NCBI GenBank assembly: GCA_018242585.1 | Contig: JAFEBQ010000012.1 | Span: 274,563 to 338,562, forward strand | From: Planctomycetota bacterium | Lineage (GTDB): Bacteria; Planctomycetota; Planctomycetia; Pirellulales; PNKZ01 | Reading direction: 5' to 3' | Length of the DNA stretch: 64,000 bases | Shown here: positions 718 through 41,383 of the stretch, one piece after another | Layout of the letters: each line of letters opens with the position of its first letter | Numbering within the stretch: position 1 is the first letter of the stretch | Made by a program: the position numbers and the translations under genes | Notes under the pieces: generated by a model | Database searches by the model: none | What the model was told of the DNA's origin: nothing | What the model saw: only the letters and a program-made list of their open reading frames with translations

Positions 718-885
718 TTTTCACCGCAAAGACGCAAAGGGCGCAAAGGAATTGCGGAAGATTTCAGCGAAGGAGGCGCAGAGGGGCGCAGGTCAAAACC
801 CTAATACCTCTTCTCTGCGATACCCAGCGTCCTCTGCGATTCCAAATGTCTTCTTTGCGCTCTTTGCGTCTTTGCGGTTCAATCT
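718..885. repeat. Inverted repeat with tandem-heptamer arms (CGCAAAG word)
   Basis: The left arm (721-752) has three copies of CGCAAAG starting 0, 8 and 17 nt apart. The right arm (850-882) is its near-perfect reverse complement. The interior carries a second inverted pair built on a GCAGAGG/CCTCTGC word. The element fills most of the gap between the partial amidohydrolase and the DUF4139 gene. No open frame inside it looks like a gene. Related elements lie at 3507-3650, 4317-4499 and 41162-41344. Confidence 0.8.
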
Positions 886-3506: not shown

Positions 3507-3650
3507 TTTCACCGCAAAGACGCAAAGTTCGCAAAGGAAATGCCTTGAGAAGATGATTGGATCGCGAGCAGTAGGCTCGATAGTCGGCAACACTCATTTG
3601 GGAATTCCTTTGCCCTCTTCTTTGCGTCCTTTGCGTCTTTGCGGTGAAAA
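3507..3650. repeat. Inverted repeat with tandem-heptamer arms (CGCAAAG word)
   Basis: Left arm 3507-3544 has CGCAAAG at offsets 0, 8 and 17; right arm 3601-3650 is the reverse complement with one additional word copy. It is the same family as 718-885 but with an unrelated interior. It ends about 75 nt before the thioredoxin-like gene. Confidence 0.8.
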
Positions 3651-4306: not shown

Positions 4307-4316
4307 AGGCAGATTC

Positions 4317-4499
4317 GACCACGACGACACGACGGCCACGACGTAGGAGCGGAAGTGGGAATGTGGTGTGGCGACGTGAGGGATGCCTCGCGTATTCGCC
4401 GCTTGGCCATTGAGCTTTGGTTATCAGATCGTCGGCAATTCCTTCGTCATTCGGACTTCGTCATTTCCTACGTCGTGTCCGTCGTGTCGTCGTGGTCGG
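4317..4499. repeat. Inverted repeat with tandem-heptamer arms (CACGACG word)
   Basis: The left arm (4317-4348) has CACGACG at offsets 0, 8 and 17. The right arm (4467-4498) is its reverse complement with one mismatch over about 32 nt. Spacing is identical to the CGCAAAG elements although the word is different. The interior is unique sequence. It sits just past the thioredoxin-like gene. Confidence 0.8.
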
Positions 4500-4695: not shown

Positions 4696-4771
4696 CTCGA
4701 ACAACGAGAAACGATGAACGCGAAACGATAATCGCCGTTTCGCGACGTGTTTCTCGATCGATCATCACAAG

Positions 4772-4799
4772 CCCAGGGGTTTCACCCCCTGGGTTTTTT
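4772..4799 (+). terminator. Rho-independent terminator after tRNA-Ala
   Basis: CCCAGGGG and CCCCTGGG pair around a TTTCAC loop and are followed directly by six T. A classic intrinsic terminator. Confidence 0.85.
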
Positions 4800-40163: not shown

Positions 40164-41159
40164 ATGGCCGGAAACGACATTCGCAAAGCGGCGCTGCTGC
40201 TGCTGAGTCTGCCCGAGGAGGAAGCGGCTAAGCTGCTCTCCAAGTTGGGGCCCAAGCAGGTCGAATCGGTCAGCGTCGAGATCGCCAAGATCGGCAACGT
40301 GGCGGCCGACGAGCAAGAACAGGCCATCAAGGAATTCGCCGACGTCAATCCAACGTCGCTGTCGGTGGGCGCCGGCGGGTTGGACCTGGCCAAGAATCTG
40401 GTCGAAAAGGCCTTCGGCAAAGGGGGCGCGAGCACCCTCGAAGTCGTCCGCCAGCAGATCGAAGCCCTGCCGTTCGGCTTCCTGCAGCGCATCGACAGCC
40501 AGCACCTGCTGACATTCATCATCGACGAACATCCCCAGACCATCGCGCTGATCCTGTCGCATCTGCCTTCGCAAAAGGCGGCTGAAGTGATCGGCGGCTT
40601 GCCCAGCGAGCGGCAGTTGGCCGTGATCCGTCGCGTGGCCCACATGGGTCAAACCAATCCTGAGATCATTCAGGAAGTCGAGCGCGGGCTCAGCCACCGC
40701 ATGTCGAGCGTGATGAGCCAGCAGTTCGAAACCGCCGGCGGCGTCGAAACCGTGGCCGAAATCCTGAACGTGACCGATCGGGCGACCGAGCGCTCGCTGC
40801 TCGAGAACCTGGCCCAGGAAGATCCGGACCTGGTCGAGGACATTCGCCGCCTGATGTTCGTCTTTGAAGACATCTCGAAGTTCTCGAACAAGGACATCCA
40901 GATGGTCCTCAAGAACGTGGAAAGCTCGCAATGGGCGATGGCCTTGAAGACGGCCAGCGAAGACTTGAAGCAGAAGGTCATGAGCAACATGTCGACGCGC
41001 GCCGCCGAATTGTTGCGCGAGGAGATGGAATACCTGGGCCCCGTTCGCCGCAGCGCCGTCGAGCAGACGCAACAGCAAATCGTCGACGTGGTCCGCCGTC
41101 TGGAGGACAGCGGCGAAATCACCATCTCGAACAACGACGAAGCGGAAGAGCTGGTCTAA
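40164..41159 (+). CDS. fliG: Flagellar motor switch protein FliG
   Basis: A 331-residue switch protein of the C ring. The N domain is DIRKAALLLLSLPEEEAAKLLSKLGPKQVESVSVEIAKI; the EHPQTIALILSHLPSQKAAEVIGGLP block is the conserved middle domain; the C domain holds DIRRLMFVFEDISKFSNKDIQMVLKNVESSQWAMALKTASEDLKQKVMSNMSTRAAELLREEMEYLGPVRRSAVEQTQQQIV, with the charged residues that contact MotA. The length is normal. It stands apart from other flagellar genes, between an LRR gene and mutS, but may share a sigma-28-like promoter with fliC. Confidence 0.97.
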   Translation: MAGNDIRKAALLLLSLPEEEAAKLLSKLGPKQVESVSVEIAKIGNVAADEQEQAIKEFADVNPTSLSVGAGGLDLAKNLVEKAFGKGGASTLEVVRQQIEALPFGFLQRIDSQHLLTFIIDEHPQTIALILSHLPSQKAAEVIGGLPSERQLAVIRRVAHMGQTNPEIIQEVERGLSHRMSSVMSQQFETAGGVETVAEILNVTDRATERSLLENLAQEDPDLVEDIRRLMFVFEDISKFSNKDIQMVLKNVESSQWAMALKTASEDLKQKVMSNMSTRAAELLREEMEYLGPVRRSAVEQTQQQIVDVVRRLEDSGEITISNNDEAEELV

Positions 41160-41161
41160 GG

Positions 41162-41344
41162 ATTTGCCACGGAGGCACGGAGACACGGAGGTTAACACGG
41201 AGGGGAACCAGGAATGACCAAGCGTTACTGACCAATGTCCAATGCTGAACCGCCGCGTATCTCCGTCCCCCCCTGCCCCGTCGTTGCCCCACTTAGTTTT
41301 TTTCTCCGTGCAAATCTCCGCGCCTCCGTGACTCCGTGGCAAAT
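41162..41344. repeat. Inverted repeat with tandem-heptamer arms (CACGGAG word)
   Basis: The left arm (41162-41202) has CACGGAG at offsets 0, 8 and 16, plus a fourth copy after GTTAA. The right arm (41300-41344) is the reverse complement with gaps. It lies between fliG and mutS, and the mutS frame stays open into it, which is why a GTG at 41336 is not a credible start. Confidence 0.8.
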
Positions 41345-41383
41345 CATGCCCGGCACTTGGGAGAGCGCCGCAAAACTGCTAGC

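Follow-up and report, generated by a model that had tools for sequence, protein, structure and literature searches.

REPIN-RAYT systems are made of short, dispersed, intergenic repeats that occur as inverted pairs around a variable loop, have a separate gene-carrying form and show no target-site duplication (PMC3116915, PMC2817692). A MITE of a DDE insertion sequence is likewise a discrete, dispersed unit bounded by terminal inverted repeats. In TIRtrons and TIRYTs, a small gene lies between long terminal inverted repeats, but TIRYTs encode tyrosine transposases and lack heptamer words (PMC3733652). CGTC REPs have been reported without a dedicated enzyme (PMC3733652). Among long simple repeats, heptamers are the most frequent kind in many bacterial genomes, as quoted in PMC4679880 and PMC4692102. 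The TAACTGA repeats of Beggiatoaceae are intergenic tandem heptamers of patchy distribution, but they are direct and almost never inverted, and an enclosed gene is unreported (PMC4679880). Tandem heptamers also form the GGGAATC arrays of Xanthomonas, with about 70 inverted close heptamer pairs per genome, and the GGGGATT arrays of Nostoc (Rehm et al. 2015, PMC4692102). The GxxExxY family (NCBIfam TIGR04256, Pfam PF13366 PDDEXK_3) has no assigned function, and the literature searched holds two passing mentions of it and nothing on flanking heptamer arms or mobility. Here, we analysed four inverted repeats with arms of tandem heptamers in a stretch of 64,000 nucleotides (the window), and we followed their families through the host genome and through other bacteria. 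Like the REPIN and MITE units, they are short, paired and dispersed; they are probably gene-deleted copies of small elements that encode a GxxExxY protein.

Results

The four inverted repeats listed in the initial annotation were recovered at their positions (Table 1), and the word starts, 0, 8 and 17 in the first three elements and 0, 8 and 16 in the fourth, are as it gave them. In the first element, the word CGCAAAG starts at 725, 733 and 742, and an inner shell of the CGCAGAG type (B) is nested at about 772-792 and 812-841. The element is homologous over its whole length to other dispersed copies, with 68-80% identity and edges that coincide with the arms. The third element begins about 10 bp past a TAA stop codon. 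The fourth has words at 0, 8, 16 and 28, a layout identical to that of a GxxExxY element on another contig (C47); the stop codon of its upstream gene is at 41159, and the downstream gene is, by eye, a MutS-like reading frame. The fourth word at +28 is a fixed trait of the CACGGAG family, found in 35 of 36 arms. A strict search, which required one 7-mer repeated at a spacing of 7-10 and its reverse complement likewise at most 400 bp away, returned just these four in the window, against 2 in sixty 64-kb Markov-3 surrogates (0.03 each); over 1.21 Mb of the host genome it gave 60 matches, against 1 in a Markov-2 surrogate. Rfam matches within the window comprise tRNA and SRP only and leave the heptamer elements unmatched. 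A DNA search of phage and plasmid collections gave no relatives of the short elements, and a literature search with the literal arm sequences gave nothing relevant.

Table 1 Heptamer inverted repeats of the window.
Element	Positions	Strand	Left arm	Right arm	Remark
CGCAAAG-family (A) short element, gene-less	718..885	.	718-748	853-882	
CGCAAAG-family (A) short element, gene-less	3507..3649	.	3507-3536	3620-3649	TTTCACC arm-end variant
CACGACG-family (C) short element, gene-less	4316..4498	.	4316-4348	4466-4498	
CACGGAG-family (D) short element, gene-less	41161..41345	.	41161-41202	41304-41345	

The host genome, which is planctomycete-like, measures 5.57 Mb in 56 contigs, and the window lies on contig C12. 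Each of the three families has about 100 arms genome-wide, divided about equally between the strands. The pattern CGCAAAGNCGCAAAG (CGCAAAG) occurs 62 times on the plus and 56 times on the minus strand, CACGACGNCACGACG (CACGACG) 49 and 47 times, which makes 96 tandem pairs, and CCACGGAGNCACNGAG (CACGGAG-type) 62 and 50 times; the corresponding reversed-pattern controls gave 0/0, 0/0 and 0/1. Two outcomes would have spoken against the initial annotation, a mere handful of copies genome-wide or all copies at orthologous sites; for this genome, both are ruled out. Inverted repeats were also catalogued without preset words in about 1.2 Mb of the genome, and the arms were then mapped per family; copy densities from this sample are biased, since many of its stretches were picked around known copies. 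The heptamer arms fall into two groups. In the first, class I, the words lie 1-2 bases apart and are CGCAAAG, CGCAGAG, CACGACG, CACGGAG and CACAGAG, all of which fit CRCNNMG. In the second, the heptamers are contiguous and include GTTGCTA, GTCAGTG/GTCCGTT, GTGATGA, AATGACC and others. The same genome also has classical GTAG REPs, which are a group apart.

A CGCAAAG unit spans about 170 bp, and its arm can be written as TTTGAACC-GCAAAG-R-CGCAAAG-NN-CGCNAAG. Arms start with TTTGAACC, TTTCACC, TTCGACC or TTNGCC, followed by the heptamers. From end to end, the copies share about 68-87% identity, and this similarity is lost at most a few bases from the ends of the arms. A CGCAGAG shell is often nested inside the CGCAAAG unit, an arrangement written A> B> <B <A and seen in 14 chains. 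Where complete class I elements of different families lie near each other, 29 cases are nested, 2 interleaved and 0 side by side; 21 of the 29 nested cases are the single composite in which A contains B. Interleaved arms in the order C> A> <C <A occur at L048 3448-3718 and L081 15945-16330; this order cannot be attained by an intact element that inserts into the loop of another. CGCAAAG elements in CACGACG loops were considered as exact empty sites and were not counted, because the arms align while the loops are not clearly homologous.

That both arms use one word, as had been stated for each of the four elements of the window, is true of most elements, while some chains have differing words on the two sides (for example, L016 and L030). 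The suggestion that one arm is copied from the other did not hold. In the CGCAAAG family, two spacer bases separate the second and the third word and are equal in both arms in 7 of 38 elements, against 7.1 expected from random re-pairing. Apart from one CC, these spacers use only seven of the 16 possible dinucleotides (GG, GA, AT, GT, TT, AG and AA), so that C is almost absent, and the third word is unconstrained at its fourth base. Since the spacers are uncorrelated between arms, the arms of this family are independent once formed, and they carry one word because both belong to one element family and arrived together. In the CACGACG family, the one-base spacer, A or G, matches between arms in 12 of 13 elements (7.0 expected, p 0.006), which was taken as a sign of two subfamilies.

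The host genome has two GxxExxY (TIGR04256/PF13366) genes, and each is the sole gene between heptamer arms. One of them, of 132 codons, lies in the 431-bp loop of L047 9666-10174, which has 39-bp arms and is the longest inverted repeat in the CGCAAAG family. The second gene, on contig C47 (L101), lies between CACGGAG arms with the 0-8-16-28 layout of family D. The two proteins are clear members of the family, with E-values of 1.6e-42 and 3.3e-41, and a score of 144.6 bits stands above the curated TIGR04256 cut-off of 35. A full-length element is about 430-530 bp long and consists of 3-4 heptamers at fixed spacing, a gene for a compact GxxExxY protein of about 130 residues and the same array inverted. 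No GxxExxY partner of the CACGACG family was found in this assembly; a GxxExxY locus elsewhere in the phylum (L261) has CRCRACG words that resemble this family.

GxxExxY genes often lie near such heptamer sequences. The scan of named bacterial genomes comprised 80 GxxExxY loci from many phyla, including the two of the host. A flanking inverted repeat with a score of at least 14 was found at 49 of these 80 loci, against 2 of 417 displaced controls, which were sites shifted along the same contigs. The 31 loci without a strong flanking repeat may be decayed or may have another setting. In an independent set from the phylum, the flanking repeat is present at 19 of 24 loci (1 of 144 displaced), and the same tandem CRCNNMG word occurs in both flanks at 66 of 106 GxxExxY loci (1 of 421 controls). 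Words around these genes include CGCAGAG, CACAGAG, CGCAAAG, CACGGAG, CACCAAG, CGCCGAG, CGCGAAG and CGCGACG; further examples are in Gemmatirosa (NZ_CP007129.1) and Bernardetia (NZ_CP147018.1). GxxExxY is present in 112 of 246 sampled genomes of the phylum. At least 3 matches to CRCARAGRCRCARAG were found in 61 of the 112 genomes with the gene and in 8 of the 134 without it, counts that are uncorrected for phylogeny, and 7 of these 134 hold at least 5 repeat matches. In Sphingomonas (NZ_CP155749.1, L291), a GxxExxY gene lies between fabD and fabG with one recognisable arm left, of the CGCGAAG type, as if it had been inserted in the operon and had later decayed.

A model of the GxxExxY protein was made with AlphaFold2 on 80 sequences (pLDDT 94.5). 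The top ranks of a Foldseek search were LHK exonuclease, the Cas4 protein SSO0001 and lambda exonuclease. Because the E-values are near 1e-3 and the TM-scores are modest, the predicted fold is assigned to the lambda-exonuclease/Cas4 branch of PD-(D/E)XK and to no close relative. Among the 80 GxxExxY sequences, E33, D73, Q97 and Y101 are invariant and E83 and K85 are conserved in at least 90%. The catalytic residues of PD-(D/E)XK are present, and nuclease activity is predicted from them. On the tree of GxxExxY proteins, the words change 31 times, against a mean of 38.1 after shuffling (0/300; 2/300 with shuffling within phyla). Linked inheritance explains this match between word and tree as well as recognition does.

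Eleven congeneric genomes were searched for the GxxExxY element L263, which comes from another genus of the phylum, and for its flanks. The site is a gene junction, where one gene ends with its stop codon and the following one begins with its start codon. In G303, this junction is empty and the two genes abut directly. In four genomes (G270, G299, G177 and G105), the insert measures 426-457 bp, has CGCAGAG arms and encodes one GxxExxY protein. In three (G300, G301 and G304), it measures 531-538 bp, has CACAGATT arms and encodes a GxxExxY-like protein that is clearly different; between G270 and G300, which hold different elements, the left flank is 96% identical. In G302, the CACAGATT arms surround 742 bp, with a further insert nested within. 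G208 has perfect 30-bp CACAGATT arms with the gene reduced to about 80 codons, and G126 has the arms but lacks a gene. The junction shows presence and absence of the element, word differences that accompany a different protein, and short forms that arise by internal deletion. Since an insertion at any other point in this region would disrupt a gene, no preference for a target is needed to explain the shared position. The mobility implied by the initial annotation is thus supported, by the dispersed units of about 170 bp whose homology ends at the arms and by empty and filled sites of gene-carrying relatives; this orthologous presence and absence was seen for the relatives, and no exact empty site was recovered for the four elements of the window.

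The families of period 7 pair with a different gene, PF05635, the 23S rRNA intervening-sequence protein, which is a four-helix bundle. In the host genome, 4 of 5 PF05635 genes are inside heptamer inverted repeats (L050 634-1131, L183, L184 and L185). In a set drawn mainly from the whole phylum (including loci L188-L216), a flanking inverted repeat with a score of at least 14 is present at 27 of 31 PF05635 loci, against 3 of 186 displaced sites. The words of these elements are very diverse, and the loci whose neighbours were read are at protein genes. Examples are found on a plasmid of Pseudanabaena galeata (NZ_CP112875.1, between cas6 and cas4), in Trichormus variabilis (NC_007412.1) and in Nostoc (NZ_CP046704.1). 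At the L188 site, in the genus used for the L263 search, four genomes (G270, G301, G302 and G105) carry a four-helix element, two with arms of the AGTTTTT type and two with arms of the AGTGGTT type; the word differs in both arms, through either turnover in place or independent insertion. The 23S rRNA intervening sequences (S23/IVP, for example in Coxiella, PMC4990558) are comparable to this second class as small selfish elements with one PF05635-type gene, but they sit in 23S rRNA helices, whereas the elements described here have heptamer arrays and, at the loci whose neighbours were read, lie at protein genes. The Xanthomonas and Nostoc arrays differ from the window elements in that they are described as quadruplex-forming and as enclosing no gene; their contiguous units place them nearer to the four-helix-bundle class.

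Discussion

We consider it about 75% probable that the four elements of the window derive, by loss of the gene, from small selfish elements that encode GxxExxY, a predicted nuclease proposed to read the word and to mobilise them, and that they are themselves non-autonomous and MITE-like. The units are dispersed and sharp-ended, they enclose one gene, they are present or absent at an orthologous junction, gene-deleted intermediates exist, and gene and repeat co-occur. The mobile and gene-deleted nature of short forms was seen in relatives from another genus, and for the window it is suggested by the identical arm architecture and by dispersal. Each word is a separate element lineage. The idea that a protein reads the repeated word is plausible, and GxxExxY is the candidate.

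In the proposed mechanism, the GxxExxY nuclease, alone or with host repair, would recognise the array of words in the paired arms and would process the element as a hairpin or cruciform. Host repair would then insert the element, with no duplication of the target site, at gene junctions and in other elements' loops, and internal deletions would yield short copies, which would be moved in trans. We infer that GxxExxY is the mover, that it reads its word and that insertion takes this course. We know of no nuclease of this fold that transposes DNA by itself, and an unlinked recombinase could do the work instead.

The strongest alternative, which we nevertheless regard as unlikely, is that the heptamer elements are REPIN- or MITE-like and are moved in trans by Y1 (RAYT) or another transposase, with GxxExxY as a mere passenger in a few copies. 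Ten Y1_Tnp genes are present in the genome, and target-site duplications are lacking as in REPs, with no convincing excess of matching flanks at offsets 0-15 and lengths 2-10 in families A, C, D, F and G. This lack sets the elements apart from a MITE of a DDE insertion sequence, and no DDE transposase was found inside heptamer arms, where GxxExxY and PF05635 were the only genes. The linked TnpA-Y1 gene that had been suggested was sought within 1.5 kb, and no heptamer inverted repeat is that near to any of the 10 Y1_Tnp genes; where inverted repeats do flank such a gene, they are palindromes of the GTAG type or of other types, with no heptamer arms nearby, and at one locus (L040) GTAG-type REPs flank the gene on both sides. 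In contrast to REPIN-RAYT, the heptamer elements have no GTAG tag and no linked Y1 transposase, their arms are not hairpins in themselves, and the enclosed gene is a predicted PD-(D/E)XK nuclease. Moreover, GxxExxY is repeatedly the enclosed gene in unrelated phyla and with different words, unlike a chance passenger.

It is very improbable that the repeats are selected, immobile host structures in RNA or DNA, such as bidirectional terminators or mRNA-stability hairpins. Their intergenic position, just past stop codons in 2 of the 4 window elements, and the long hairpins that could form would suit such a role, but the orthologous gene junction is empty in one species and holds different elements in others, most relatives in the order have few or no copies, and the full-length forms carry their own nuclease gene. 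Least probable, and already disfavoured, are neutral repeat dynamics without any protein, in which slippage evens the words within an arm and hairpin template switching copies arm to arm: tandem words and inverted arms are substrates of both processes, and heptamers prevail among long simple repeats in many bacterial genomes (PMC4679880, PMC4692102), but spacers (7/38 identical, 7.1 expected) and the third word vary independently between arms, words stay constant while spacers vary at fixed positions, and the dispersed copies have sharp ends.

Returning to GxxExxY as the mobiliser, we give slightly better than even odds to a wider proposal, in which GxxExxY proteins mobilise a large, unrecognised class of mobile elements, each protein reading its own word three to four times, with the four-helix-bundle elements as a parallel class; DUF559 and GIY-YIG proteins may serve other orphan repeats. 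No report that joins heptamer arms to GxxExxY was found in the literature searched, a scope with most subscription papers and preprints outside it. The link between GxxExxY and the repeats gives a testable function to a common gene, a source for repeats noted in many bacteria and, for a kind of bacterial repeat that previously had no enzyme, a candidate. The natural pairs of protein and word could allow the specificity to be decoded. If it is true that one nuclease of about 130 residues spreads the element, the system would rank with the smallest known that move DNA autonomously.

Other repeat families

The palindrome near 4768-4796 of the window, after a tRNA gene, is a relative of the inverted CAAGCCCAGGGGTTTCACCCCCTGGGTT repeats at L056 11174-11764, which surround a 191-codon frame with an HVH motif and no Pfam match. 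At L079 9386-9875, a palindromic repeat family of the form CCCTTCTCCC...GGGAGAAGG surrounds a gene that resembles DUF559 endonucleases (PF04480, E 2e-34); repeat and gene may be another pair of repeat and nuclease. In G302, inside the insert at the L263 junction, a CGTC-REP-like inverted repeat, GTCATTCCCGC...GCGGGAATGAC, encloses a GIY-YIG nuclease gene (L272, one example).
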